Of a stretch of 64,000 bases of DNA, positions 25,217-39,574 are shown piece by piece. Source of the stretch: an uncultured Clostridia bacterium (GTDB taxonomy: Bacteria > Bacillota > Clostridia > Christensenellales > Borkfalkiaceae). The stretch is taken from assembly GCA_904419075.1 (NCBI GenBank), contig CAJFQM010000013.1:1-64000 (forward strand), in the 5' to 3' direction. The stretch's first letter is position 1; each line of letters starts with the position of its first letter. Made by a program: the position numbers and the translations under genes. The notes beneath the pieces are model-generated. The model searched no databases. It was given only the letters and a program-made list of their open reading frames with translations, and had not been told where the DNA came from.

Positions 25217-25452
25217 ACGATATATCAAAGATTCGGAGGGAAAAAATACCGTCGAATGTCATTGCAACGCTTATTCTTGCGACTGTCAATTCGTCTTTCG
25301 TCACCCTTCCGGCTCGTACCGATTTTTCGATTACGGCTACGAACGTTGGCGTTGCATGAGGAGTCGGGTTCACATAGTATTTGAAAACGGAGCGGAAATT
25401 TATACGAATTTCGTCGAAGTAAAGGCGCGTATACAATAAAATATTCTGAATG
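25217..25452 (+). other. possible broken reading frame after the DUF11-type gene
   Basis: From 25217 to the TAA at 25437-25439 the frame one base off from the DUF11-type gene stays open and reads a Cys-rich stretch (VECHCNAYSCDCQFVFRH) and VHIVFENGAEIYTNFVEV. It has no start codon of its own. A terminator follows on the same strand. It could be a frameshifted extension of the preceding gene or a decayed small gene; an antisense frame of 79 codons also exists. I cannot decide. Confidence 0.3.
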
Positions 25453-25487
25453 AAAAAAGACTGCGGAATTTTTCCTCAGTCTTTTTT
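25453..25487 (+). terminator. terminator before the IS element
   Basis: Stem AAAAAAGACTG / CAGTCTTTTTT enclosing a second short stem (CGG/CCT), ending in a T-run on both strands; probably bidirectional. Confidence 0.75.
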
Positions 25488-25512
25488 CGCTTGGCGCTTT
25501 AGCATGAATAAA

Positions 25513-25531
25513 CCCCCAGTTTTACTGGGGG
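25513..25531. repeat. left-end hairpin of the IS element
   Basis: Perfect 8-base stem with a TTT loop. In this family TnpA recognises such hairpins as single-stranded DNA. Confidence 0.85.
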
Positions 25532-25626
25532 AAGTAAAAAACACTTCAGTAAATAAAAACCTCTGTGTTATAATCAGTGAAGGTTTGGCGACCGCATCAC
25601 TAAAAATAACAGGAGGTTTTTATCAA

Positions 25627-26094
25627 ATGAAAAATGAAATAAAACACACGGCACATTCAACATACAGATGTGAATACCATATAGTCTTTGCGCCCAAATA
25701 TAGGCGGAAAGAAATATATGGACAGCTTAAAAAAGATATAGGAGAGATAATCAGGAAACTCTGCAACGAGAAGAAAGTGGAAATTATCGAGGCAGAAGCA
25801 TGTCCGGACCATATCCATATGCTGGTAAGCGTGCCACCGTATTTAAGTATAGCACAGTTTGTAGGATTTCTCAAGGGAAAAAGCACATTGATGATATTCG
25901 ACAGACATGCAAACTTAAAATACAAGTACGGTAGCAGAAACTTTTGGTGCAGGGGCTACTATGTTGACACGGTAGGGCGTAACGAGCGAGTGATCCAAGA
26001 ATATATCAAAAGACAATTGGAAGAAGACCATATGCACGACCAAATCAGCATGAGCGAATACATAGACCCGTTCACGGGTATCAAGAATAAATAG
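25627..26094 (+). CDS. tnpA: IS200/IS605 single-strand transposase TnpA
   Basis: A 155-residue Y1 HUH transposase of normal length. It has YHIVFAPKYRRKEIY near the start, the HUH motif in CPDHIHMLVSVPP, and the catalytic Tyr in RNERVIQEYIKRQL. It cuts and joins single-stranded DNA at the element's ends. I take the ATG at 25627 because AGGAGG lies ten bases before it; the longer open frame from 25450 begins outside the element. A short hairpin (26106-26125) follows the gene. Confidence 0.95.
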   Translation: MKNEIKHTAHSTYRCEYHIVFAPKYRRKEIYGQLKKDIGEIIRKLCNEKKVEIIEAEACPDHIHMLVSVPPYLSIAQFVGFLKGKSTLMIFDRHANLKYKYGSRNFWCRGYYVDTVGRNERVIQEYIKRQLEEDHMHDQISMSEYIDPFTGIKNK

Positions 26095-26204
26095 GGCAAA
26101 AAAGACAGCCGCGACATAGCGGCTGCCGGAGAAAAGTGATGCGTTGCCAAATTTCGGTACCCGTTGACGGGTGCGCCGGTATTATACCCTTTTAGGGTCT
26201 GTGC

Positions 26205-26228
26205 AAACCACCAGTTTACTGGTGGTTT
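26205..26228. repeat. right-end hairpin of the IS element
   Basis: Palindrome with 11-base arms (AAACCACCAGT and its complement) around TT. The stop codon of the YD-repeat gene (26216-26218) is in the middle of it. Confidence 0.88.
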
Positions 26229-29200
26229 TGACTATACTTCCCTACCAGCGTCCCCGCTTCGTTGTAAATCTCCGTTACGTCTCCGAATACGTTCTTTCGG
26301 TATAAATACTTCTCGCTTCCTATTTTGATTCCGATTATCCCGTCCTCTCCGTACAGATAATCTATCTTCTCGCTTCCCCTTATCTCACGGATCAGTTTCC
26401 CTTTCTCGTATACGTAACTTGTTTCCGTTCCTCCCGCTGTCTTGCTTCTTCTTATTCCGAACGCGTCGTACGTATATGTCACACTTTCACTTCCGTTACT
26501 CGCACTCTTTAACCGACGGCCTTTCTCCCACGTCAGCGTCAGTTCACAATACTTCAACGGATTCCCGATTGCATCATACTCGAATTTCTCTTCTCCGTAT
26601 CCGATCAGTCGATCCGTTCCTTCTTCGTATTTATACTCTTTTACGCTTCCGTTTATGCTCTTCGTTTCAATATTTCCTTTATCGTCGTAAGTATAACATA
26701 TTTCTTCATTTTTGTCAAGATTTTTTTCAAAAGTCAGTCTCCCTAATTTATCATATCCATATTTCTTCTTCTGTACTCCATTTTTATTCACCGATACGAT
26801 ATTTCCCATTTCGTCGTACGTGTACGTTTCTTTTCCGTCCGTTTCACCGTTCTTTCCATAAAATATCGTATTGATTCGGTTCGTCGCATGGTCCCCGACC
26901 TTATAATATCCGTATCTCTCGCTATATGTCTGTGTCCCCAGCTTCTGTGTAGTCTTCTTCTTTCTTCCCAGCGCATCTCTCTCGTAACTCTCTTCTACTT
27001 CCGATACGCTTATCTTTTTCAGTTCCTTCGCACTGTCGTTCGTGTATTCGTATCCGTATGTCACCGTGTCTCCGCTTCCGTATGTCAGCGTTTCCACAGT
27101 CACCTCTCCGTAGTCTCCGTAGCTCGTCTCTCTGCTCTTCCCTCCGAAGCTGTGTTTCGTCTCTCGATTCAAACCGTCGTATTCATAACTGTGGGTTTCG
27201 TTCGTCTCTTTATCCTCTATCCCTGTCAGTTTTCCTTCCGTATACGTATATACCGCCTGCTCCGTTCCGTTATATTTTGTCTTAACGACTCTTCCGCTCT
27301 TGTCTTTTATCGTCATGAACTTCTCGCCTTTCGCGTTCGTCAGCTCCGCTTTGTCCACCTTTCCGCTCACTCCGCTTTCCGTCGTGTCGTCCGTGTATTC
27401 GATACTTTCATACGCTTCGACTCCGTTCAGATCGATTTGCTTGATTCGGCGTTTCCCGTCATATGTATATTTTACTACCGTATCTCCGCTTCTTACCTCT
27501 ATAACTTCTCCCGCGACGTACTTTTTACTCGTGCTGTTCTCTTCTCCGTCTTCCGTGCTCTGCGTGATACTCGTCACCGTATCGGAAAAATCATGTCCAT
27601 ATGCGACTTTGCTCCCGTTCGGCAGGATTTCCTTTCTCACGATATTTGTATCGTCTGCATATTCGTATTTCACCTTATTCTCGCCCGTTTCGTCGTACTC
27701 GGAAACCACTTGCCCATTTTCCGAATACTCGTTTTCCGTGTAGAACTTGGATGCACTGTCAAGGCTGTTGTACGTATATCTCCGCTTTATGTTTCCTTTT
27801 TCGTCGTATTCCGTCTCTTCGATTTCTCTTCCTCTTGTCTGTTCTTCTCCTTCTACCCAGCTTTCCGTTCGGATTACGTTTCCCTGTGCGTTATAGTAAT
27901 ACTTCTTATGGCTCGTTTCCGCTTTCGCTCCCGACTTACTGTACGTCACTTTCTCCGTCTCCGATATCAGTTTCTGATTCTCGTCATATTCGTACTCCGT
28001 TTCGTACGTCGCCTTATTCGTTCCTTCCGAAGTCAGTTTTACTCCGCTCGTCGTCACCTCCGATACTTTTTCATACTCATTCAGCTTCGCCGTTTCCGTA
28101 TAATCCGCCGTAAAGATGAAACTTTCCAACGATTTCTTATTCAGGTCTTCGAGCCTTGCCTGCTTTACCGTCCTGTGAGGATTGCTTTGTTTCACCGTCC
28201 CTTTCCAGTACGGCTCGTATTCGTACTGCTCCGCTTCCGTCACCACTCCGCCTTCTTCTTTTCGGTATTCCGTGCAATTCCCGTCCGAATCGAAAATATA
28301 TTTCTCTCGATTCCCACTCTTTCCCGTAATCAGTGTACTGCTTACTTTTACATTTCCCGATGCGAAAGTGTAAGCAAATGCTGTCGAATCGATTTCCTGT
28401 GCCGTCTGCGTTTCCACTCCTTCCGAAGATATCTTTTTGACTGTCGATTGTGTCGTGATTTTGTCGATTTTTCCTCCGTTATAGGTGAAAACCGCCTGTT
28501 CTTTCCCGGCACTGTCCAATACTTTCTGCAATCTTCCGTCGCTGCACACAAGCTCCGTTTCTCTTCCGTCGCCATAGCAGATTTTCGTCAGTTCCGCGCC
28601 TCTATAATCATAACTTACTCTGCGGCCGCGCGTGTCCGTTATACTTTCCAAAAGATTATCCGAATCGCGATAGGAGAATCTTACCTGCTTATTCGTATTG
28701 TCGTAAAGGCTCCTTATTCGATATTCCGTCGTCGAGGCGGTCTTTCTGTACGCTTCGTATTCCACCACCGCATAATTTTCGTAATTATCATATACCGCTA
28801 CCAGTTTCCCGTCTTCGTTATAGCCTTTGATTATCCGACCGTCCGTCAGAAAATTCACCGGCATTTGGCGTTTCATTTGCTCCAATTCTTCCGATTTGTT
28901 TTTGTATTCTTTATAATAGTTCTGAACCTGGTATATATATTGATTCTTTTTGTCCGAAATCAGTTTCATTTGATCTTTAACCAGCTCTTCTTGATTTTCC
29001 AATTCCTCGGTTTGGGTAGCCAATTGCAAAACCAGCAGGTTTCTCTGACGGAACATTTCATGGATTGCCGCACCTGACTGTTTGGGGGTTCCCGATACTT
29101 CCTCTCTGTTCGCATCTCTGAATTCCGGGTATTCACAATGATCCGCCGTAAATAATTGATAGTTATCGGGGGAAACAGTATTCGTATCTTCTGCAAGAAG

Positions 29201-31405
29201 ACTGCAAATAGCATTTTTCTCATCAATAAAACTGTCTCTTGTACAATTATTTGTATAACGGATTAATCTTTCTGAAAGTTCTGCTATCGAAGTTTTTAAA
29301 CTTGCAATCGCACTGTCTACGCTTCCTGTCAATGGAACCAAATTATTTTTATCATTTGCTTCCGTCTTTGGAACCATGATATCGGCATTGAGATATGTTT
29401 GATTCAGCGATTCAAACTGTTTTTTCAAAGATTTATATTGTAAGGCCTCCGCTTTCGGGATCGGCATTTGAAAACTTTCATAATTTCCGAATATACTTCC
29501 TTCACTGAGAGGCGTATTTTCCCCGCTGCTCGTATCCAGCAATACAAATTCCTTATATGCGTTTTTGTAGCTTTCGACCTGTTCTTCCAGCTGTTTATAC
29601 TCGTCGCTCCGCTGTTCCAGAAGTTCGACTTTCTTTATGTCTTCCATTTCCGTAACGGCTTTTAAGCCCGTCTGCGAACGATATTCCGCCGTTACGTTAT
29701 AACCGTCATATTTTAGCGTCCCGTCCGTTTCCACCGATACGGAAGATTTTGCTATATATGTCTTTTGGCCACTTGTATTGATGTAATAGTAATATTCCTT
29801 AAACCCGTGTTTTTCTCCTTTTGCGTCCGTGTAGACGTAAGTCGTATCCAAAGCGCTGTTGCCGTTTTTGACAAAATTTTCGTTGAGGCTCAACCGAAAA
29901 TTTTCTCCCGCCAAGCAATTTTCCGCGCTCTTTTTATAAACGTGCGCTACTTCCAGTCCCATCACGGAGTTCTCCGCCGATACGTCGCAAAATCCCGCGA
30001 CCATATCTCCGTTCGAAAGATCCACCTCGGCCGTTCCCGCGCCCGCAAGCGTAAAGGTCTTTCGGGTAGGAATCACATCTTCGTTGGTAATGTACTCGAT
30101 TTCCAGAATCGGCGGATAGGCACTCCCCGGAGCATAGAAATTGCCGAGGCTCGTTCCCGTCAACATAAATTCAATATTCTGCGTGCCTACATTTTTTAAT
30201 TCGGAAGTAACGTCCGCGTACAGCATTTCTTCCGAGACTCGCATTGTTCTGTAATTTATACTGAAGCTTCCAATTACGCTTCCGATCGCTTTCAATATCA
30301 ACGTGGCTTTTACGATTTTATAGTTCAGGAACGACAATTCCGAGCCCTTGACCGTCAGTTCTGTTCGATATGAGTATGCGCCACTCGTTCCCGCTTTTAT
30401 ATTCGTCTCGGTTACGTTTACCCAATTCGTTCCCGAACCAGATGACGACGATACCATTTTCCTTTGTACCTGTTTTGTGATCACAGAACCACTGTCCGTC
30501 ACGATCTGCGGATCGATGACTACGGGGAACGCTCTTTCAGGAGCATTGATCCAATCCGCGTCCGCCACCACCGCAAACACGTATTTTCCCTCCGTTTCCA
30601 GTTCCAGTTCGTAATACACCTCTTCGCTCGACTCTCCGTTCGAGTCGTACATGTACGGCGTAGGAACAGTAAACTCCAGCGTTTCTTCCTTTTCTCCGTC
30701 CTCTTTCACCTTTTCCGAATACAGTTCCAAATTAGCGTTATCCTCCGACAACCGCAGTTTCAGTCCTTGCGTATCCAGTTTGAACAAATAACGGTATGTT
30801 TCGGATTTTTCCTTTACCACGATATTTTCTTTGACGTTATTACCGTTAAAACGGTATTCCAAATCAAGCTCCGGGCTTGCATTCTCGTAAACCGCTCTGC
30901 TTCCTTTGCTTCCCGCCGCGTTTTTTTCGCTTTCCCCGACTGAAAGCGTCGTTTCGGGAATTTCTTCCGTCGGTCCTTCGCTCATAGCTTTTACGTTGAC
31001 AGGCATACTCGCACCCAAATACGTCCACGACAAATTAATGCCTTTACCCGACAGTGAAATCCTTTTCACTGATGAAACCTTATCTAATGATGCCGTAAAT
31101 TTTCCCAAATTCGCCTCATAGCAATCTGCCTTTTCCGAAAACGTATTATCGATAGGACGCCACCGACCCGTTTCTTCCTCCCGATAATTGACAGGGGAAG
31201 CTCCGATGATACTTTTTGCCGTTCCGTTGTTCAAAAAGTAATGCCGCGAATACATATCGGTGTTCGTTTTATCCTCGCCGAGTATGGTGGGATCTTCCCA
31301 TTCCGCCACATCATTGTCCGCCGCGACCGCTTTTGGTTCTTCCGATACGATTGTTTGTACTTTCGTATTTTCCGTTTTTTCTTTTTTTAATCTGATGATA
31401 CCCAT
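26216..31405 (-). CDS. YD-repeat (RHS/WapA-like) protein with DNRLRE-like domain, 3' end cut by an IS element
   Basis: A 1729-residue protein without a signal peptide. In order: a charged start, beta-rich modules (about 50-310), a DNRLRE-like domain (about 320-445), a long helical, probably coiled-coil part (about 600-850), then about 850 residues of YD repeats (GRRVSYDYRGAELTKICYGD, YTYDEMGNIVSVNKNG and many more). The last repeat reads FGDVTEIYNEAGTLVGKYS, then QNHQ and a stop that come from the IS element. In complete RHS/WapA proteins this point is followed by a conserved closing segment of the shell and a variable toxin domain. Both are absent, so the protein is probably disarmed or altered. 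It is the last gene of the operon that begins at 39434. Confidence 0.85.
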   Translation of the reverse strand: MGIIRLKKEKTENTKVQTIVSEEPKAVAADNDVAEWEDPTILGEDKTNTDMYSRHYFLNNGTAKSIIGASPVNYREEETGRWRPIDNTFSEKADCYEANLGKFTASLDKVSSVKRISLSGKGINLSWTYLGASMPVNVKAMSEGPTEEIPETTLSVGESEKNAAGSKGSRAVYENASPELDLEYRFNGNNVKENIVVKEKSETYRYLFKLDTQGLKLRLSEDNANLELYSEKVKEDGEKEETLEFTVPTPYMYDSNGESSEEVYYELELETEGKYVFAVVADADWINAPERAFPVVIDPQIVTDSGSVITKQVQRKMVSSSSGSGTNWVNVTETNIKAGTSGAYSYRTELTVKGSELSFLNYKIVKATLILKAIGSVIGSFSINYRTMRVSEEMLYADVTSELKNVGTQNIEFMLTGTSLGNFYAPGSAYPPILEIEYITNEDVIPTRKTFTLAGAGTAEVDLSNGDMVAGFCDVSAENSVMGLEVAHVYKKSAENCLAGENFRLSLNENFVKNGNSALDTTYVYTDAKGEKHGFKEYYYYINTSGQKTYIAKSSVSVETDGTLKYDGYNVTAEYRSQTGLKAVTEMEDIKKVELLEQRSDEYKQLEEQVESYKNAYKEFVLLDTSSGENTPLSEGSIFGNYESFQMPIPKAEALQYKSLKKQFESLNQTYLNADIMVPKTEANDKNNLVPLTGSVDSAIASLKTSIAELSERLIRYTNNCTRDSFIDEKNAICSLLAEDTNTVSPDNYQLFTADHCEYPEFRDANREEVSGTPKQSGAAIHEMFRQRNLLVLQLATQTEELENQEELVKDQMKLISDKKNQYIYQVQNYYKEYKNKSEELEQMKRQMPVNFLTDGRIIKGYNEDGKLVAVYDNYENYAVVEYEAYRKTASTTEYRIRSLYDNTNKQVRFSYRDSDNLLESITDTRGRRVSYDYRGAELTKICYGDGRETELVCSDGRLQKVLDSAGKEQAVFTYNGGKIDKITTQSTVKKISSEGVETQTAQEIDSTAFAYTFASGNVKVSSTLITGKSGNREKYIFDSDGNCTEYRKEEGGVVTEAEQYEYEPYWKGTVKQSNPHRTVKQARLEDLNKKSLESFIFTADYTETAKLNEYEKVSEVTTSGVKLTSEGTNKATYETEYEYDENQKLISETEKVTYSKSGAKAETSHKKYYYNAQGNVIRTESWVEGEEQTRGREIEETEYDEKGNIKRRYTYNSLDSASKFYTENEYSENGQVVSEYDETGENKVKYEYADDTNIVRKEILPNGSKVAYGHDFSDTVTSITQSTEDGEENSTSKKYVAGEVIEVRSGDTVVKYTYDGKRRIKQIDLNGVEAYESIEYTDDTTESGVSGKVDKAELTNAKGEKFMTIKDKSGRVVKTKYNGTEQAVYTYTEGKLTGIEDKETNETHSYEYDGLNRETKHSFGGKSRETSYGDYGEVTVETLTYGSGDTVTYGYEYTNDSAKELKKISVSEVEESYERDALGRKKKTTQKLGTQTYSERYGYYKVGDHATNRINTIFYGKNGETDGKETYTYDEMGNIVSVNKNGVQKKKYGYDKLGRLTFEKNLDKNEEICYTYDDKGNIETKSINGSVKEYKYEEGTDRLIGYGEEKFEYDAIGNPLKYCELTLTWEKGRRLKSASNGSESVTYTYDAFGIRRSKTAGGTETSYVYEKGKLIREIRGSEKIDYLYGEDGIIGIKIGSEKYLYRKNVFGDVTEIYNEAGTLVGKYSQNHQ

Positions 31406-31443
31406 CTTTTTTCTCCTTGTTTTTTATATTTTGATTTTTGTTT

Positions 31444-32013
31444 TTATATATTTTCGATCTCTGTCTCGAGCGTGATTGCAAAAATATGCGTAAACATATT
31501 ATCCGGAAAAATCAATTTCCGGATGGGTTCTTTCATTCCCGTTTCGGCGATACAATGATGAAAATAGACGAGATGGCAAGCTCGACCCGACGATTTTACG
31601 ATTTTGACCGTAGTTATTTTTTCTCCCTTAAAAAATTCTCTGGTAAAAGTATCTTCATCCGAGGGGTGAGCCCAATCGGCAAGGCTGATCTGCACTTGTT
31701 TTTCCCGTTCTTTTTCATCGAGGATACGTACATATTCATGGATATCTCCCCAATATGAAAAGCCGATGATATGTAATTTATCGACCCGTTTCCCGATTCC
31801 GAGCGTTTGTCCTTCACAGACTACGTTATCGCAAGCTCCGAAACGGAAAGCAAAGTCTATCCCGTCTATTTGTTCGATTTCTTTGAGTCTGTTATCTTCT
31901 TTCAGAATGTATATATTGTCCAATCCGGCCTCTTTCTCGTCCGTCGGCGGAACATCATAAACCAATTTATGGTTCATAATCGCAGAAAGGTCCAGCGTTT
32001 CAAATTTTTTCAT
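31444..32013 (-). CDS. unidentified beta-sandwich-like protein
   Basis: A 189-residue cytoplasmic protein. The order DLSAIMNHKLVYD..., IDGIDFAFRFGACDNVVCEG, QTLGIGKRVDKLHIIGFSYW, then LADWAHP resembles a beta-sandwich module attached to some glycoside hydrolases, in which a conserved phrase with GQT and LH(L/I) recurs. Alone, with no catalytic domain, its job is unclear; binding of a sugar-containing compound is one possibility. It overlaps the gene at 32000-32956 by 14 bases and lies just upstream of the YD-repeat gene. Confidence 0.62.
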   Translation of the reverse strand: MKKFETLDLSAIMNHKLVYDVPPTDEKEAGLDNIYILKEDNRLKEIEQIDGIDFAFRFGACDNVVCEGQTLGIGKRVDKLHIIGFSYWGDIHEYVRILDEKEREKQVQISLADWAHPSDEDTFTREFFKGEKITTVKIVKSSGRACHLVYFHHCIAETGMKEPIRKLIFPDNMFTHIFAITLETEIENI

Positions 32014-32956
32014 TTCCCGTCTCCGTCAATAAATCATATACGATTTTTTCCAATCTTTCTATTTCGTCCAATTTTCTGAGAACATTGTTTTTGCACTTAT
32101 TGACATATTCAAAATTATTCTGAGCCCGCATTTTCCAAAACAGCGACAAGATAACCGCATAACCGTTTCTCAATTCCGAAACCGCGACTTTATTATTCTC
32201 GTTTTCGGAAAACAATTCCGCTTTCGCGAGCGATGCCAACGATGTTTTCATTTTTTCCAAATACAGAATAATTTTTCCCGATTTTTCTTCCAATTCCCCG
32301 ATATTTTCGTCAATCATGCGTCGCAATTCCCGTAAATTTTTTTCGGAGTTCTGTTTCCAGCCCTTCGCCCTATCCCGATCGATTGCTTCAAGAACATTCC
32401 CCGTACCGCATCTTTTCGTCGGATATAATACCCGACTCGTGAGTCGTATGCGGCGGATATATTTTTTATACATCCGATTCGCCAACAGCACATTGTCCAG
32501 CGAGACGACTTTTTTGGCAAAATCAAATCCGTTTCGGTAATTATGATCCACGATATATGCCAATCGTTTTTCCGTGTCGTATCCATAGCACAGCACGAAA
32601 TGCGGATCGTGCAGTTTCCGATACGTATCCCCCCGGCTTTCGAGGAAAAAACAATCCACCCCCACGATAACGGGACACCCCTTATCGATTCTCTTTTTCA
32701 ACGATCGTTCCGACAACCCGCAAGGCTTACAGCGATACCCGAAAAAGCGTTCAAATTCCTTGGCGGATAAAATCCCGCTTTCGTCTGATTCAAAATCATT
32801 TTTCGGAAGCGCCATATAATTGATGAGCACTTCTTTCGCCTCAACTCCTAAGCAAGATACCCCCGCAATCAACTGATGCCAGAAACAATTTCTGAAAAAA
32901 AACTCGTTAAACGGTTTTACGCCCTCTATTTCATGCTTCCTTTCTTTTGATTTCAT
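32000..32956 (-). CDS. BtrH-like papain-fold acyltransferase/peptidase homologue (first)
   Basis: A 318-residue protein. Its first 190 residues have the layout of the BtrH N-terminal domain: Cys24 in FFFRNCFWHQLIAGVSCLG, a core VGVDCFFLES, His119 in DPHFVLCYGYD and Asp137 in YIVDHNY. These give a papain-like Cys-His-Asp set. In butirosin synthesis BtrH moves an acyl group from an acyl carrier protein onto an aminoglycoside. The last 130 residues are helical and likely coiled coil. The gene overlaps an acyl carrier protein gene by 26 bases, which supports a carrier-dependent acyl transfer. A peptidase role cannot be excluded. Confidence 0.68.
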   Translation of the reverse strand: MKSKERKHEIEGVKPFNEFFFRNCFWHQLIAGVSCLGVEAKEVLINYMALPKNDFESDESGILSAKEFERFFGYRCKPCGLSERSLKKRIDKGCPVIVGVDCFFLESRGDTYRKLHDPHFVLCYGYDTEKRLAYIVDHNYRNGFDFAKKVVSLDNVLLANRMYKKYIRRIRLTSRVLYPTKRCGTGNVLEAIDRDRAKGWKQNSEKNLRELRRMIDENIGELEEKSGKIILYLEKMKTSLASLAKAELFSENENNKVAVSELRNGYAVILSLFWKMRAQNNFEYVNKCKNNVLRKLDEIERLEKIVYDLLTETGNEKI

Positions 32957-33188
32957 TGCTCTTTTCTTCCGCTCCTTTTATGAAATCCCCGACAGTCTCC
33001 CAATTGTCCATGTTCAGTTCCTCCAATTCAAATTCCAGCCCCGTCTCGTCCTCGATACGCACAAGCGCCGAAATAAACGACAGGCTGTCCAGACTTAATT
33101 CCTTCAATCTGCTTTCTTCCGTCACGTTCTCATCCAATGCGCAGGCTTCCCCAAAAATCCGCACAATCTCTTCCCCGACTTCCGTCAT
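32931..33188 (-). CDS. acyl carrier protein (first)
   Basis: An 85-residue protein with the four-helix carrier layout and the phosphopantetheine site Ser35 in LSLDSLSFISALVRIEDE. Such proteins hold an activated acyl or aminoacyl group as a thioester. It shares ATGA with the AMP-ligase gene upstream and overlaps the BtrH-like gene downstream, so the three are translated together. It differs from the housekeeping fatty-acid AcpP in its surface and context, and the cargo is unknown. Confidence 0.88.
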   Translation of the reverse strand: MTEVGEEIVRIFGEACALDENVTEESRLKELSLDSLSFISALVRIEDETGLEFELEELNMDNWETVGDFIKGAEEKSNEIKRKEA

Positions 33189-34453
33189 TTCTTCCTCCGT
33201 ATCAGCTTTCCGCCCGACGTATATTCAAACGTTTCCGTTTTTTTATATTCGTTCGGCAGCAAATGCGGCGCAAGTTTTTCTCGGGCAAACCTTTGAAGCT
33301 CCGTCAGCTCTGCCCTGCCTTTTACTTCTGCACAAATCTTTTCCCCGAACCGCTCGTCTCTCTCTCCGTATACGAGACATTCCTCCACCCCGGGACATTC
33401 CTTTAATACCGCCTCGATCTCTTCGGGAAAAATATTCACTCCGCCGCGGATGATCATATCGTCCTTTCTTCCGTCTATGTAGTAATATCCATCTTCGTCC
33501 TCGTGTGCCATGTCCCCCGTATGCAACCAGCCGCCTTTGAGCTTCTTTTCCGTCATTTCCTCCGCCCCGTAATATCCTTTCATCATGCAAGGGGATTTCA
33601 CCAAAAGCTCGCCGTCTTCGATTTTCATGTGCACGTTCCCGATCGGTTTTCCGATACTTCCCGCCTTTCTCAAAAAATCCTCGGGCGGCAGCGCGCTTAC
33701 TCTCGGACTGTGTTCCGTCAACCCGTACACGTTGTAAAACTTTGTTTCGGGAAACGCTTTCGCTATTTTTATCGCCTGTCCTTCCGTCAGGCGTTCTCCG
33801 CTGATTGCCGCTGTCTTTAACGGAATTTCCGCCTTATCCGCATATCTCGAAAGGCTCCCGAATACCGTCGGCGTGGCGCAATATACCTCCGCTTCCGTCT
33901 CCCGCAGAAACTTCATCAATCGCTGCGGTATGAATGCTTCTTCATAAAAATATATCGTCATTCCGTTACATATTCCATACAGCAGTTCGCCCGTCACCCC
34001 CGATATATGCGTGAGGGAACGGGAAATACATAATCGATTCATCCCCGCTACATCGAAATATCCCGAAATGTATTCCAGATTTTCTATAATGTTTTCATCC
34101 GTCAGCATCACGCCTTTGGGTTCGCCGGTCGTCCCGCTTGTAAACATGAGCAACGCCACATCTTCCAGCCCGGCTTCTCCCGATTCCGCTTTTTCCACTA
34201 CCGAACGGATATATTCATACCGACCTTGTCCGTATTCTCTTGACACGGGTACCGCGATATCTCCCTCGGCAAGGCATTTGATCACTGCTGCCGCCTGTTG
34301 CGCGCGCGTGGTTCCTTCGCATAATCTCAGCCGACGAAAAGGCTTCTCCGTATATTCCGGCAGGTCGCGATATGTCTGCCCGCTCCCCGATATCACCTCC
34401 CTTTTTCCGGCACCATCCATCGCCCTTTTACGGACATACTCCCATACTCTCAT
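33185..34453 (-). CDS. AMP-forming acyl/aminoacyl ligase, compact
   Basis: A 422-residue adenylate-forming enzyme. It has the P-loop-like LLMFTSGTTGEPKG (about 102-114), NVYGLTEHSPR, the LHTGDMAHEDEDGYYYIDGR region with RKDDMIIRGG and the catalytic Lys near the end (GGKLIRRKK). These are the core motifs of acyl-CoA synthetases and NRPS adenylation domains. The N-terminal part is much shorter than in the usual 500-residue members. It probably activates a carboxylic acid and loads it onto one or both carrier proteins that flank it. The substrate cannot be read from the sequence by eye. Confidence 0.9.
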   Translation of the reverse strand: MRVWEYVRKRAMDGAGKREVISGSGQTYRDLPEYTEKPFRRLRLCEGTTRAQQAAAVIKCLAEGDIAVPVSREYGQGRYEYIRSVVEKAESGEAGLEDVALLMFTSGTTGEPKGVMLTDENIIENLEYISGYFDVAGMNRLCISRSLTHISGVTGELLYGICNGMTIYFYEEAFIPQRLMKFLRETEAEVYCATPTVFGSLSRYADKAEIPLKTAAISGERLTEGQAIKIAKAFPETKFYNVYGLTEHSPRVSALPPEDFLRKAGSIGKPIGNVHMKIEDGELLVKSPCMMKGYYGAEEMTEKKLKGGWLHTGDMAHEDEDGYYYIDGRKDDMIIRGGVNIFPEEIEAVLKECPGVEECLVYGERDERFGEKICAEVKGRAELTELQRFAREKLAPHLLPNEYKKTETFEYTSGGKLIRRKK

Positions 34454-34683
34454 AAATATTTCTCCGTCAGGCTCACCAATTCTCCCAAGGTCTTCAATTT
34501 ATCCGGCTCCAAATCGTTGTCCCGAAAAAAGAAGCCGAACGTTTCTTCTATTCCCGCGATTACCGCCACCAACGACAGACTGTCCAAACCGCGCTCTTTC
34601 AACGTGCCCTCTTCCGTCAAGTCCGTACCAGTGCTTTCCTTCGCGATTTCCTTAATTTTTTCCGTCAGTTGTTCTTTCGTCAT
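34450..34683 (-). CDS. acyl carrier protein (second)
   Basis: A 77-residue carrier protein with the modification site Ser35 in RGLDSLSLVAVIAG. It overlaps the AMP-ligase start by four bases (ATGA) and the second BtrH-like gene by 32 bases. Two different carriers on either side of a ligase suggest two loading or transfer steps, each with its own BtrH-like partner. Confidence 0.88.
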   Translation of the reverse strand: MTKEQLTEKIKEIAKESTGTDLTEEGTLKERGLDSLSLVAVIAGIEETFGFFFRDNDLEPDKLKTLGELVSLTEKYL

Positions 34684-35488
34684 TTAACGCCTCCGCTATC
34701 TGTTTTTCCTGTTTTACTATTTCCGCCAGCTCCTCTTTTGTTGTAAAATGCTCCGTTGCCTTCGTACTACCCGCTCTCCGACGTTCTTCTTTCAGCCGTG
34801 CACGAATATACAGCTTATCCAAAATCCCGAGCTCTTCCGTCAACACTCCCTTTACACGCTCCGAAGCATAATATTCCCGCATCCGACGCCGCGTCGTTCT
34901 AAGTACGCCGATCGCTCCTTCAAAACTTCCGATTTTCAGTTCCGGCAGTTCCGCAAAGTTCTGGGTTATGATCCTTTCCGTCATTTCGTCCGATGCTTCT
35001 GACGTTAAATCCGAAATCTCATATACACACAGCGCACCGTCATATACCTCCGCAAATTCCTCTTCCGTAAACTCACCTTCCGACAACGGATATTCGTTTA
35101 ACCAATGCAGATTTTTATCTACGCACACATAGTGATCCTCACGCCACGACGAACGTTTGAATTTCAGAAAAAAACGCGTATTCACCCGAATCAGACTCAA
35201 TTTGTCATCCCGCTGCTTCCGTAACGTCTCTATCGCCGAACTTGCTTTGCAGGGTAAAAATTCGTGTTTCACGATTCCGTATTCTTCCGCCACGTCCTGC
35301 AGTCTCGGCAAAGCATAATAGTTTTCGTACGTCGCTCCCCTTCGAAAATCGTCAAATACCTGTCCCAAGCCTATGAACCCGCTCCCGTATAATTTCCGTA
35401 TGTCGTAGCTCTTCGACAGCCACGCCATAAAATATTTTTCCACACACGACATTCCCAAAGTTTCAGACAATTCCTTACGTCCGATCAT
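34652..35488 (-). CDS. BtrH-like papain-fold acyltransferase/peptidase homologue (second)
   Basis: A 278-residue protein. Cys15 in LGMSCVEKYFMAWLSKSYDI, His119 in REDHYVCVDKNLHWLNEYP and an Asn/Glu after it give the same spacing as in the first BtrH-like protein of this operon (Cys24/His119), although the sequences have diverged greatly. About 130 helical, charged residues follow. I infer a carrier-dependent acyltransferase or a cysteine peptidase of the C39/BtrH group. The start ATG at 35488 lies 14 bases inside the preceding gene. Confidence 0.6.
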   Translation of the reverse strand: MIGRKELSETLGMSCVEKYFMAWLSKSYDIRKLYGSGFIGLGQVFDDFRRGATYENYYALPRLQDVAEEYGIVKHEFLPCKASSAIETLRKQRDDKLSLIRVNTRFFLKFKRSSWREDHYVCVDKNLHWLNEYPLSEGEFTEEEFAEVYDGALCVYEISDLTSEASDEMTERIITQNFAELPELKIGSFEGAIGVLRTTRRRMREYYASERVKGVLTEELGILDKLYIRARLKEERRRAGSTKATEHFTTKEELAEIVKQEKQIAEALNDERTTDGKN

Positions 35489-36545
35489 CCTTTATTTCCT
35501 CCAATAAATACCTCGTATCCGCATTACACAACCGCATTCGTTCATCTGCCGTCCAACGATATTTCTTATTTTGCATGTAATCCGTAACTTCCGGTACGAT
35601 TTTTCCGTATTCTCCCGCTGCAAGCAACATATCTTCATCATGAAATACCCGACCGACTTGACCCAGTACCGCCCCCGCCGCTTCTTCTGCTCCGTTTTCG
35701 CGCAATTGTCGTTCCAGTTCCTCCATCTTCACCTGTCCGCTGTGCCAATAATAATAAATGTCCGCCAGTTTATATAAATCCAGGTCTTTTCCCTTTCCGA
35801 CCATGAACATCGTCCTGCTTTCCTTATATTGGTGCAGCAGCAAATGAATGAAAAATGCCGTCTCCGACGCCGAATACAACCCGATTTTTCCTTCATATTT
35901 CTTCCGTCCGCACAGCATTTCTTCTCGCAATCCGATATATTCCGACGGCGTCGCCCCAAGGGAAAAATTGATATCCGTTTCTATATACGGTATTTCCGAA
36001 TTTCCCGTCAATTTCAGAAACGGCGCCGTCTCGCCCCGATTCATTCGCCGGCTCAGAATTTCCGACCGCTCGAAACCCTGAATTTTTCTGCTTTCGGGAT
36101 CATATCTGCCTTGTACATATCCCAGCCGTTTCAGTATCTCCGAAACTTCCGTCAGATTCTCCGATCTTACCAAAATATCTATATCGTTGGACGACCTTTC
36201 GCCCGATCCGTAAAACGCCGGACGACCGTCTCGCCCCATGGCGTTGCTCAATACGCTCCCTTTCAAAAATATATGCTCCGTACCCGATTCTTCCAGCGCC
36301 GACGAAAGTTCGCGCAGATAACGCCTCATGAAACGTACCCGCCTCGCCTGATTTTCATATTCCCGACTCAGTATCTTTTCCATCTTCGGCGGAAAACGTA
36401 CCCATGACGGCTTTCGCGAATAAAACAACCCCGCTATTCGGTGGGCTATCAGAAAACCTATCGTTTCATAACTTTCCGGATAATATCCTCGCCATTCTTC
36501 CCCCTTCAACACCTTCACGACATACTCCAACGTCCTGCCTTTCAT
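35475..36545 (-). CDS. nucleotidyltransferase-family protein (NTP_transf_5 type)
   Basis: A 356-residue protein. The motifs IFLKGSVLSNAM (about 92-103) and SSNDIDILV (about 118-126, two Asp for metal) are those of the uncharacterised nucleotidyltransferase family that often sits in peptide natural-product clusters such as lasso peptides. Such enzymes transfer a nucleotide to a hydroxyl or similar group. I start it at the ATG 36543-36545 because GGAGG is correctly placed; the frame is open further upstream, but that part is the kinase gene in another frame. Start and stop of the two genes overlap (ATGA). Confidence 0.82.
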   Translation of the reverse strand: MKGRTLEYVVKVLKGEEWRGYYPESYETIGFLIAHRIAGLFYSRKPSWVRFPPKMEKILSREYENQARRVRFMRRYLRELSSALEESGTEHIFLKGSVLSNAMGRDGRPAFYGSGERSSNDIDILVRSENLTEVSEILKRLGYVQGRYDPESRKIQGFERSEILSRRMNRGETAPFLKLTGNSEIPYIETDINFSLGATPSEYIGLREEMLCGRKKYEGKIGLYSASETAFFIHLLLHQYKESRTMFMVGKGKDLDLYKLADIYYYWHSGQVKMEELERQLRENGAEEAAGAVLGQVGRVFHDEDMLLAAGEYGKIVPEVTDYMQNKKYRWTADERMRLCNADTRYLLEEIKDDRT

Positions 36546-37195
36546 ATCACTCCTCCGCGATACAACTCCGCTTTCACCATAGAAAACGCTTTTTCCTCCG
36601 CTCCGCTCGTGTCCAACACTACAAATCCTTCCCGCTTCGACAGCTTCATGAACTCGTCCGATACTTTCCTTAAAAGCTCTTCGTCCAAATATCGCTCCTT
36701 TTCCTCCGGACGGCTTTTGATCCGCTCGATCGCCTGCCACGGCGGAACATTCGCCAAAAAGACTATATCCGGTTTCAATATGTATTTCGCCGCTTCGTAA
36801 AACCATTTCTCTTTCTTATATCCTCTCGCCAACATGTTCGCCAGCGAAGTATAAATATATCGATCGCACAACAACGTCTTTCCCCTCCTTAACATCGGTT
36901 CTATCACTTCGTAACCGTGTTGGATCCGATCCGACATCGTCAAAAGCTGCACCGCTCGGTAATCGATCGTTTCGTGATTCGCACTATACATCATCTTTTG
37001 GAACAGCCTTGTCTTCCTCGATAAATCCGTCGGCTGCTTTATGCTCAATACCTGCTCCCTTCCCTGTCTCTCTTCCAAAAATTTTTCCGTCAGTTTCAAC
37101 AGCGTCGTTTTCCCGGCTCCGTCCGTTCCTTCGAATACGATCAGCTTTCCCTTATCTTCTTTGTCCCGTTCTTTCAGCCTGAGTCTACGTTCCAT
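36542..37195 (-). CDS. thymidylate-kinase-like P-loop kinase
   Basis: A 217-residue protein of the dTMP kinase fold: P-loop FEGTDGAGKTT (about 21-31), the DR(Y) motif LLCDRYIYTSLANM, and a lid with RPEEKERYLDE. It begins with an extra basic stretch (MERRLRLKERDKEDKGK). Because it is embedded in an operon of a nucleotidyltransferase and carrier proteins, it may be a dedicated kinase for an unusual nucleotide or substrate. Whether it can be the cell's thymidylate kinase cannot be judged here. Confidence 0.88.
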   Translation of the reverse strand: MERRLRLKERDKEDKGKLIVFEGTDGAGKTTLLKLTEKFLEERQGREQVLSIKQPTDLSRKTRLFQKMMYSANHETIDYRAVQLLTMSDRIQHGYEVIEPMLRRGKTLLCDRYIYTSLANMLARGYKKEKWFYEAAKYILKPDIVFLANVPPWQAIERIKSRPEEKERYLDEELLRKVSDEFMKLSKREGFVVLDTSGAEEKAFSMVKAELYRGGVI

Positions 37196-37727
37196 TTCTT
37201 CTCCCTCTCAACAAGATTTTTCCGCCGTTCTTTCTTTCCTCTGTTTCCGCAACGCTTTTCTCCCCTGAAACCGATTTCTCGACCTCCCTCGTTTCAGGAT
37301 CTTTTACCGGTTTCTCCTCGGCTTCCGTTTCCGACTCCGATCCCGTTAATCGGCGGATCGCTTCCAGCAGTTTTTCGTTCTCTTCAACGATATACTCCTT
37401 CTTCAGTTTTTCTTTTGTGGGAAACAACTTTTCCCACAGCGCATAAAATGTCAGGCTCAGGCTACTCGACGAAAGCCATAACGTTATGAATTCTTTCGTC
37501 ATATCGATTTCACCTTTTGTCGCCGCCATATATCCCAACGTCAGACAAAAACCCAGAATTATCGGCAAAAATACCAGATATCGCGTTACCTTGCTTCCGT
37601 CTTCCAGCTTCTTCGTAAATGTTTTGATCGGAATTTTCAACAACCCCGTCAAAACATTGATCACCAAGCCCAATATTACCGCTTCCAATCCGTATTCGCC
37701 TATTATGTTTATGATTTCTTCCTCCAT
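37185..37727 (-). CDS. holin-like small membrane protein
   Basis: A 180-residue protein with three hydrophobic segments in the first 110 residues (LEAVILGLVINVLTGLL, YLVFLPIILGFCLTLGYMAA, FITLWLSSSSLSLTFYALW). A long charged cytoplasmic tail follows (KLKKEYIVEENEKLLEAIRR, then Glu/Lys rich). The layout is that of phage holins of clostridia, and the ArpU-like gene upstream fits a phage origin. No endolysin is seen in the operon. It could make a pore that exports the signal-less YD-repeat protein; this is inference only. Confidence 0.62.
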   Translation of the reverse strand: MEEEIINIIGEYGLEAVILGLVINVLTGLLKIPIKTFTKKLEDGSKVTRYLVFLPIILGFCLTLGYMAATKGEIDMTKEFITLWLSSSSLSLTFYALWEKLFPTKEKLKKEYIVEENEKLLEAIRRLTGSESETEAEEKPVKDPETREVEKSVSGEKSVAETEERKNGGKILLRGRRNGT

Positions 37728-37791
37728 TCCTCTTTCCCTCCGTTTATGTTTTTCACCGTTCTCTTCAAAAAACGTCTTTTACTTTTACTTT

Positions 37792-39039
37792 TTATTCGTA
37801 TATCGAACGGATCCGCTCTTCCCTCAGGCGATTCGTCAACTCTACGTTCTGCGCGCCTCCGCTCTCTATCGTTCCTTCATAACTTTCCACTATATTGTCT
37901 TTTACAATCCCGATTTCTCTTCCCCCATAGATCCCGCAATCCCTCACGTTTCGGATCAGGTTCCCCGTTATTATGTTCCCTTTCGCTTCTACTCCTCCCG
38001 CATAGATCCCGCAGCCGCTTTGACATTCTTCTTTCGCCATCAGTACTTCCATTACGTTTCCAGATATGATACAGCTTCCCGCTTTTTGCTCTAAAATCCG
38101 CGCGTTTCGGCTCGTTGAGGTCAGTATATTCCCCTCGATACTGCTGTTATTTCCGTAATTTCGGATACTCCTCCCGCAGATTGTATGCGTCGATAAAATT
38201 TTGTTCGACGATACTTTCGTATACTCCCCGTGGTTTTCCAACCCTACGCACATTCCCGCCCATTCCCCGACAAGATTGTTCGACGTTATAATCGTATACA
38301 ATCCTTCGTTAATGAATCCGAACGCATGCGCCTGTTCTTTCTCCTTCCCGATATTATGCGTCCCGTTTGCCTTGATGTTGTTGCCCACAAACCGCCCGAA
38401 ACGACCGTTCGTGTATACGCCCACCGCTTTCTGCCTTTCCCCTTCTCCACGGTTTTCCGCATATATATATGTATTCTGCACCGAAATGCTGTTCGACAGA
38501 TTGTTATATATTCCGTATACCGTATTCGCCTTCGGATACTCTTCCGAAAGACAGGATACTTTGATAAGACTGTTATCCACTACCAGATTATCCGCCCGCG
38601 TCTCTAAATGCGTGTCCAGATTTCCGTTGTTGTATATCCCCGACAGCGTTATCTGCTTATCCGCATACATCTCTATCCGACAGTTCTCTATTTTCAGCCC
38701 GAAGGCCGTATTGTAAATCCCCGACAGCATTCTCATGCTATGCGTCGGATTTTTTACGGAAACGCGCATATACAAATTACGCAACGTTACATTCCGCGCC
38801 GACGGATGTACAAATATAATTGCCCAGTCGCTCCCCGTGCTGTCCTCTACCTCCGTTTCCAATACCGCGTCGCTTCCGTCTATCACCACTTCCGACTCTC
38901 GAAGATTCACCAATCCTTTCATGCACGTCTTCCCGATCGTGAAACTTTGGCCCTGACTCAGGTTGAGTCGTACCACCCCTTTTAATCGGATTTCCCGACT
39001 TGTCCCGTTCGCTTCAAACATTGTTTCCTGCTCTTTCAT
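37792..39039 (-). CDS. right-handed beta-helix protein, not secreted
   Basis: A 415-residue protein made of about 15 short beta-helix turns, each with a GIYNN or N-N-I type corner (LSGIYNTAFGLKIENCRIEM, GIYNNLSNSISVQNTYIYA, GCGIYAGGVEAKGNIITGN). The fold occurs in phage tail fibres and in polysaccharide lyases. No catalytic residues of a known lyase stand out. There is no signal peptide, which fits a phage-type fibre or assembly protein better than a secreted enzyme. Confidence 0.72.
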   Translation of the reverse strand: MKEQETMFEANGTSREIRLKGVVRLNLSQGQSFTIGKTCMKGLVNLRESEVVIDGSDAVLETEVEDSTGSDWAIIFVHPSARNVTLRNLYMRVSVKNPTHSMRMLSGIYNTAFGLKIENCRIEMYADKQITLSGIYNNGNLDTHLETRADNLVVDNSLIKVSCLSEEYPKANTVYGIYNNLSNSISVQNTYIYAENRGEGERQKAVGVYTNGRFGRFVGNNIKANGTHNIGKEKEQAHAFGFINEGLYTIITSNNLVGEWAGMCVGLENHGEYTKVSSNKILSTHTICGRSIRNYGNNSSIEGNILTSTSRNARILEQKAGSCIISGNVMEVLMAKEECQSGCGIYAGGVEAKGNIITGNLIRNVRDCGIYGGREIGIVKDNIVESYEGTIESGGAQNVELTNRLREERIRSIYE

Positions 39040-39059
39040 CTCTTTTCTCCTTTCCTTGT

Positions 39060-39434
39060 TTATTCCGTTATTCCTTCACTCAGTATTTCGTCCCGCTTCA
39101 AATATCCGTCATATATGTACAATTCGTATATCTTCTCTACGATCATCTGTTTGATATGATAGTAGTTCCCTTCCGATATCGGCAGTTTCATCATTACTTC
39201 CCGATCCCGCTTTCCGAAAATTATGCTCTCTCGGATTACTTTTTTTACTACCTCATCTCTTTCTTTTTCCATCACTTCATGAATATATTCCTTCAATTTT
39301 TTCGTCCATTCCGGCAGCTCTTTCCGTTGGGGACTCCTGTCTCGCCCCACGATTATTTCTTTTTCTCCCGTCGCAATTGCCTGCTCTACTTTCCTGTAAT
39401 TTTTTATATAATACTTTAATTCTTTCTTTTCCAT
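39060..39434 (-). CDS. ArpU-like phage-type transcriptional regulator
   Basis: A 124-residue protein of the ArpU/RinA-like group, which resembles sigma-70 region 4 and activates late genes in phages of Gram-positive bacteria. It shows the start ELKYYIKNYRKVEQAIATGE and a C-terminal helix-turn-helix-like part (DREVMMKLPISEGNYYHIKQ). It is the first gene of the operon that runs to 26216, so it may control the operon itself. ATG at 39434; no strong ribosome site, only GGGAAAG about 15 bases upstream. Confidence 0.75.
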   Translation of the reverse strand: MEKKELKYYIKNYRKVEQAIATGEKEIIVGRDRSPQRKELPEWTKKLKEYIHEVMEKERDEVVKKVIRESIIFGKRDREVMMKLPISEGNYYHIKQMIVEKIYELYIYDGYLKRDEILSEGITE

Positions 39435-39463
39435 TTGTTTTACTACTTTCCCTTACACTGAAC

Positions 39464-39536
39464 AGTCAACCCCGCCCTTTGATTTCCCCTTATAAATCAA
39501 AGGGCGGGGTTGACTTTTACAGTCAACCCCGCCCTT
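39464..39536 (-). promoter_or_regulatory. triple-repeat leader with two mutually exclusive hairpins
   Basis: A 16-base element (AGTCAACCCCGCCCTT) occurs at 39464 (extended to 22 bases), inverted at 39494-39515, and again direct at 39521-39536. The middle copy can pair with either neighbour: 22 bp with the left one or 16 bp with the right one. In the minus-strand message the leader begins in the right copy. On the plus strand the right-hand hairpin is followed by GCTTTTTTATT, a good terminator. It may be an attenuator for the operon, a bidirectional insulator, or both. Confidence 0.8.
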
Positions 39537-39544
39537 GCTTTTTT

Positions 39545-39574
39545 ATTATATCACATCTTCCTTTCTTTTGTCTT
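39545..39574 (-). promoter_or_regulatory. promoter of the ArpU-to-RHS operon
   Basis: Perfect TATAAT (39545-39550) with AAGACA (39569-39574) 18 nt upstream on the minus strand. Transcription would begin near 39538, at the edge of the triple-repeat leader. Confidence 0.6.

Follow-up and report, generated by a model that had tools for sequence, protein, structure and literature searches.

The amide bonds of closthioamide are formed without a nonribosomal peptide synthetase (NRPS), by a ligase together with an ATP-grasp enzyme and a pair of carriers, and CtaG has been proposed as the peptidyl transferase in this route (PMC6772006). BtrH acylates the antibiotic butirosin, and the BtrH_N family has been placed near C39 peptidases (PMC10318531). 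The WapA-like RHS polymorphic toxins, which are Sec-exported in Firmicutes, have a DNRLRE-like N-terminal part, YD repeats, an RHS core, variable tips and tip arrays. We analyzed a 64,000-nucleotide stretch of an uncultured Clostridia bacterium (the window), which is contig C13 of its source genome (G000; 2.33 Mb in 38 contigs). The window contains a 12-gene operon, numbered P0012 to P0001 in gene order (Table 1), that joins a putative acyl-transfer cassette to an RHS gene. A literature search found no described counterpart for a carrier-protein amide pathway joined to an RHS toxin-type protein.

The operon resembles the closthioamide (Cta) system in its acyl ligase (CtaI), its two carriers (CtaE and CtaH) and a protein, P0007, whose best, though modest, solved-fold match is the peptidyl transferase CtaG. 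However, the Pfam matches of the operon proteins did not include the ATP-grasp enzyme CtaD, the thioamide synthetase CtaC or the transglutaminase CtaJ, and the operon adds kinase, NTP_transf_5, AziU2-like, RHS and holin-like genes. As with butirosin BtrI/BtrH, a BtrH_N-domain transferase adjoins carrier proteins; in contrast, the operon lacks aminoglycoside genes, and its two transferases appear to come from different families. The RHS protein shares the WapA-like architecture, with a tip array in one related genome (G119), but differs in having no signal peptide, in carrying an N-terminal MG[IT]I[KR] tag, and in its linkage to acyl-transfer genes and a holin-like gene. RTX toxins undergo acylation dependent on an acyl carrier protein (ACP), as in HlyC/HlyA, where HlyC is a GNAT-type enzyme that uses fatty-acyl-ACP. 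The likeness to that system is one of analogy only, a carrier-borne acyl group being placed on a toxin; acylation of the RHS protein here is putative, and the operon contains no HlyC homologue.

Eleven of the 12 genes were found in identical order in 4 other Clostridia genomes: L057 and L058, which are metagenome-assembled genomes from the database, G119 and G044. In L057 the order was P0011-P0010-P0009-P0008-P0007-ACP-ligase-ACP-P0003-P0002-RHS, and L058 kept it from P0010 to P0002, the limit of its contig. A profile of P0010 recovered the full operon in G119 and an operon divided between two contigs in G044. The RHS gene immediately followed P0002 in 3 of the 4 operons reaching that far, with one nitroreductase gene intervening in G119. 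P0011 preceded P0010 wherever its position could be read, and the kinase and nucleotidyltransferase genes (P0009 and P0008) consistently stood just before the carrier-protein set. Protein identities to the window operon were 21-67%, with P0011 (57%) and P0009 (60-64%) among the best conserved. The most specific marker was P0007. Its relatives in genome contigs were reached with a two-sequence profile (P0007 and a distant relative from G479), a single-sequence search having been unsuccessful; the profile found four loci among approximately 85,000 species genomes and matched 2 of 391 class genomes, the window genome included. Of 200 order genomes, 3 had strong P0010 matches, the window genome being one of them. 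The earlier note on this DNA had proposed one functional unit, to be tested by conservation of gene order elsewhere, and the proposal held in all four other genomes. Because they share the same gene order, comparison of these genomes indicates that the operon is a single conserved, patchily distributed accessory unit and not a set of chance neighbors.

Pfam matches confirmed the ACP, ligase and nucleotidyltransferase assignments made earlier. P0004 and P0006 matched PP-binding and retained the DSL serine, and P0005 matched AMP-binding, with its core motifs and a C-terminal GK retained. The source genome encodes an Sfp-like phosphopantetheinyl transferase that could activate both carrier proteins. 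P0003 belongs to BtrH_N (36.6 bits against a cut-off of 29.7), and its C24 and H119 were invariant in 6 sequences. P0007 had no Pfam family match; its C15, H119 and N131 were invariant across seven sequences, and its model (pLDDT 78) had CtaG as the top PDB match (E 2.4e-3, probability 0.99, TM 0.41) and also matched the C39 domain of PCAT1. Of the two proteins that had been called BtrH-like, P0003 thus kept that name, and P0007 looked closest to CtaG; the Cys-His pair expected in both was present. P0007 would be C39-like by predicted fold and Cys/His conservation alone, with CtaG nearest, which makes it the weaker assignment. The two proteins are predicted to be C39/papain-type transferases of different families. 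Taken together, P0005, P0006, P0004, P0007 and P0003, with P0002 as partner of the last, are well supported as a predicted NRPS-independent thiotemplate carrier-protein pathway. A second BtrH-type protein is encoded elsewhere in the source genome (L041:8716-9774, G000:C9), after a sigma-factor-like gene and not adjoining a carrier protein.

The model of P0002 (mean pLDDT 71) matched AziU2 of the AziU3/AziU2 azinomycin aziridine synthase (7wuw; E 6.8e-8, TM approximately 0.67). However, the sequence similarity was marginal, with a weak match (E 0.003) when the fused P0002 relative was used, a P0003 profile gave no match to the AziU3 partner, and aziridine chemistry is not implied. That relative, at locus L053, joins a P0002-like domain to a BtrH-type domain, and P0002 and P0003 therefore probably act jointly. 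P0008 matched NTP_transf_5 (E 2e-23) and retained KG and the aspartates D208, D210 and D278; no mention of this family was found in the literature search. P0009 matched Thymidylate_kin (E 2e-29) and the dTMP kinase family TIGR00041 (104 bits against a cut-off of 83). The genome has its own housekeeping tmk (G000:C14), so P0009 is, on gene content, a spare kinase. The AYQ motif is absent from P0009 (TSLANM, against SSFAYQ in the housekeeping enzyme), and it is doubtful that a kinase with ANM at this place acts on thymidylate. A PADLOC defense scan returned only generic P-loop matches for the kinase, and a known defense system was rejected.

P0001 matched RHS/YD repeats (PF05593, E 4.5e-12; TIGR01643 was also matched) and falls in the DNRLRE-type RHS group. 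The RHS core and a toxin tip were present in L057 and G119, the latter with additional tip cassettes. In the window, an IS200/IS605-type element that had gone unnoticed in the earlier note sits in the RHS gene just before the end of the RHS core (hairpin end at approximately 26232). The reading frame terminates within this element, with no variable tip after the core and any immunity gene gone, and the window copy may therefore be a degraded effector. The MG[IT]I[KR] tag was found at the N-terminus of 5 of 5 operon-linked RHS proteins (two from G119), all without a signal peptide. None of the 11 RHS relatives from other Clostridia with an assignable start had the tag, and 8 of these had a hydrophobic, signal-peptide-like leader. 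The second RHS gene of G119 was 78% identical to the first over the initial 36 amino acids and then approximately 31% over the next 60. It lies in L110 (G119:C9:1-13500), where several alternative RHS tip cassettes come after it, with small open reading frames between them, an array that resembles a typical polymorphic toxin reservoir.

Leaderless RHS genes also occurred elsewhere directly after a holin-like gene. In L106 (G372) the holin-like gene encodes 94 amino acids with a marginal PHROG holin match, and in L081 (G210) it encodes a relative of P0010. The L081 pair (G210:C5) adjoins a DUF4422 gene and a baseplate Gp10_C-like protein, suggesting that another tailoring gene accompanies the same holin-like/RHS pair there. 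A family of approximately 377 amino acids was encoded upstream of the leaderless RHS in L106 and L107; one member tested had no Pfam match.

A rearranged cassette core without RHS was found in at least 2 further loci, L059 and G479. L059 encodes NTP_transf_5, kinase, P0007, ACP and ligase after two ABC transporters. G479 encodes NTP_transf_5, ACP, P0007, ACP, ligase, ACP, a LamG-type protein and a P0003 relative, then an ABC transporter. L052, L053 and L055 hold looser related sets, also with ABC transporters. An ABC exporter was therefore seen in 5 of 5 non-RHS loci versus 0 of 5 RHS operons in the stretch read, L058 and G044 being on short contigs. From these five versus five loci we infer that the RHS and holin-like proteins may occupy the place of the exporter in the sister pathways. 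P0011 was not present in non-RHS loci with the cassette core. The G479 cassette lies near YcaO and radical-SAM genes: a cluster of the type making ribosomally synthesized and post-translationally modified peptides (RiPPs), with a 69-amino acid candidate precursor, adjoins it (L045/L046, G479:C3), and the product could possibly be an acylated RiPP. A CYTH-domain protein (Pfam) stands beside the L059 cassette (L059:12396-12950), and likewise, by eye, in L053, L055 and the leaderless RHS locus L106.

Our tentative preference is that the operon is a conserved polymorphic-toxin system whose RHS protein would be chemically tailored prior to release. P0009 and P0008 would make or activate a building block, and P0005 would charge a carrier with a carboxylic acid. 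P0007 would move the acyl group between carriers or to an amine, by analogy with the role proposed for CtaG, and P0003 with P0002 would deliver it to the final amine, by analogy with BtrH. The most likely acceptor would be the leaderless RHS protein, perhaps its N-terminal tag, a preference that follows from the synteny, the missing exporter and the shared tag. The modified protein would then leave the cell or be displayed, aided by P0010 and P0011. The stronger proposal is rather doubtful: a new polymorphic toxin class in which an NRPS-independent carrier assembly line, including nucleotidyltransferase and kinase reactions, would build a non-peptidic group and place it on a leaderless RHS protein, at an N-terminal tag dedicated to this purpose, and in which the modified protein, exported via the holin-like protein, would replace the ABC exporter of sister pathways.

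Several results weigh against modification of the RHS protein. The cassette core occurs free of RHS in L059 and G479, so by this gene content RHS is dispensable for the cassette chemistry. The window copy has itself lost its tip. The tag amounts to approximately five conserved residues over four genomes, and in G119 the similarity at the tag continues upstream into non-coding DNA, so it may reflect recent duplication rather than selection. The fold match between P0007 and CtaG is also modest (E 2e-3, TM 0.41). A free product is nearly as likely: the cassette could follow a closthioamide- or butirosin-like route to a diffusible small amide, which may carry a phosphate or nucleotidyl group, with the RHS and holin-like proteins being either a separate toxin or a non-covalent vehicle released with it. 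In its favor, the enzymes known to be related to these produce small molecules (closthioamide, PMC6772006; butirosin through BtrH, PMC10318531), and the related sets of L059, G479, L052, L053 and L055 adjoin ABC transporters. However, none of the five RHS operons shows a small-molecule exporter in the stretch read, and the position and tag of RHS are conserved along with the cassette.

It is unlikely that the cassette modifies some other partner (P0011 or a polymer of the cell surface, for example) and thereby anchors or displays the RHS effector or protects against it. P0011 is leaderless, precedes P0010 wherever visible and is, with the kinase, among the best-conserved proteins; however, its absence from the RHS-free loci that hold the cassette core argues otherwise, and there was no direct sign of modification. 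Equally improbable is that two biochemically unlinked operons, one for biosynthesis and one for a polymorphic toxin, are simply carried by the same accessory island. The patchy distribution would fit this, as would the differing flanks, which are biotin genes in G119, unlike the GH28 and sugar-ABC genes of the window. In contrast, the genes overlap tightly, their order is kept in five genomes at the low identities given above, and the RHS tag is common to them.

P0010 is plausibly holin-like: its relatives occur inside prophages, which leaves the earlier description tenable, although it matched no holin family. Five P0010 proteins have a variable linker followed by a conserved [KT]I[LIV]LRG at the C-terminus (window 37185-37230). 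LRG as a purely protein-level motif is doubtful because part of it coincides with the following gene's ribosome-binding site. P0011 was assigned as a beta-helix protein by eye alone. The first gene, P0012, had been called ArpU-like; the open reading frame is present, but it scored 13.5 bits against TIGR01637, far under the cut-off of 43.1. No ArpU-like gene lies upstream of P0011 in G119, the other operon readable there, and a P0012 paralogue lies in a different island (G000:C18); P0012 was rejected as a member of the system and stands outside the conserved unit. A phage-derived unit, as the earlier note had suggested, was also rejected. No phage structural genes were found near the operon, scans of viral contig collections with the P0007 profile, P0001, P0008 and P0011 gave no match, and prophage relatives were seen for P0010 only. 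A plasmid collection held no match for P0003 or P0007. The sole phage-record match was L055 (MT835751.1), an unannotated fragment deposited as 'Bacteriophage sp.' with ABC-transporter, NTP_transf_5, carrier-protein, kinase-like and CYTH-like genes, which looks like a fragment of a bacterial biosynthetic cluster.

All 12 open reading frames previously placed on the minus strand, from 39434 to 26216, were confirmed. Gaps of 20 nt (P0012-P0011) and 64 nt (P0011-P0010) are followed, from P0010 to P0002, by successive overlaps of 11, 4, 14, 32, 4, 4, 26 and 14 nt, and 38 nt separate P0002 from the RHS gene. P0008 likely starts at 36545, not 36806, because the longer frame extends back across P0009; the overlap with P0009 is then 4 nt. 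The promoter-like site has 10 of 12 consensus matches, and 3 such sites were found against approximately 1 expected by chance. In the leader, the 16-base arm AAGGGCGGGGTTGACT occurs in 3 exact copies (chance expectation 0.02), the middle one able to pair with either flanking copy, an arrangement that may act as a switch or attenuator.

Table 1. Features of the operon and its 5' region (window coordinates).
Feature	Position	Strand	Remarks
Promoter-like site AAGACA-18-TATAAT, TG before -10	39545..39574	-	consensus match only
5' leader, perfect 16-bp inverted repeat (loop 5) and third arm copy	39464..39536	-	between promoter-like site and first gene
P0012, small ArpU-like regulator	39060..39434	-	sub-threshold family match; outside conserved unit
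P0011, leaderless beta-helix-like protein	37792..39039	-	57% identity to G119 counterpart
P0010, holin-like membrane protein, long tail ending in conserved [KT]I[LIV]LRG	37185..37727	-	
P0009, dTMP-kinase-family P-loop kinase, ANM in place of AYQ	36542..37195	-	
P0008, NTP_transf_5 nucleotidyltransferase	35475..36545	-	KG, D208, D210, D278 invariant
P0007, putative C39/CtaG-like transferase	34652..35488	-	C15, H119, N131 invariant
P0006, acyl carrier protein 1 (GLDSL)	34450..34683	-	
P0005, compact AMP-dependent acyl ligase, 422 aa	33185..34453	-	TSGTTG.PK, YGLTE, C-terminal GK416 conserved
P0004, acyl carrier protein 2 (LDSL)	32931..33188	-	
P0003, BtrH_N-family acyltransferase	32000..32956	-	C24, H116, H119 invariant
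P0002, AziU2-like beta-sandwich protein	31444..32013	-	BtrH-type domain fusion in L053
P0001, leaderless RHS/YD-repeat protein, N-terminal MGIIR tag, toxin tip lost	26216..31405	-	
IS200/IS605-type element truncating RHS gene	25450..26232		Y1 transposase 25450-26094 on +

If the RHS protein is indeed tailored by this cassette, the operon would connect polymorphic toxins and thiotemplated natural products, fields that are now studied apart, and would represent a new means by which Gram-positive anaerobes arm or export leaderless toxins. It would also assign roles to NTP_transf_5, CtaG-like and AziU2-like proteins, which have few or none today. Even with a free small molecule as the product, the cassette would be an undescribed biosynthetic family of Clostridia, for which P0007 may serve as a simple marker gene.
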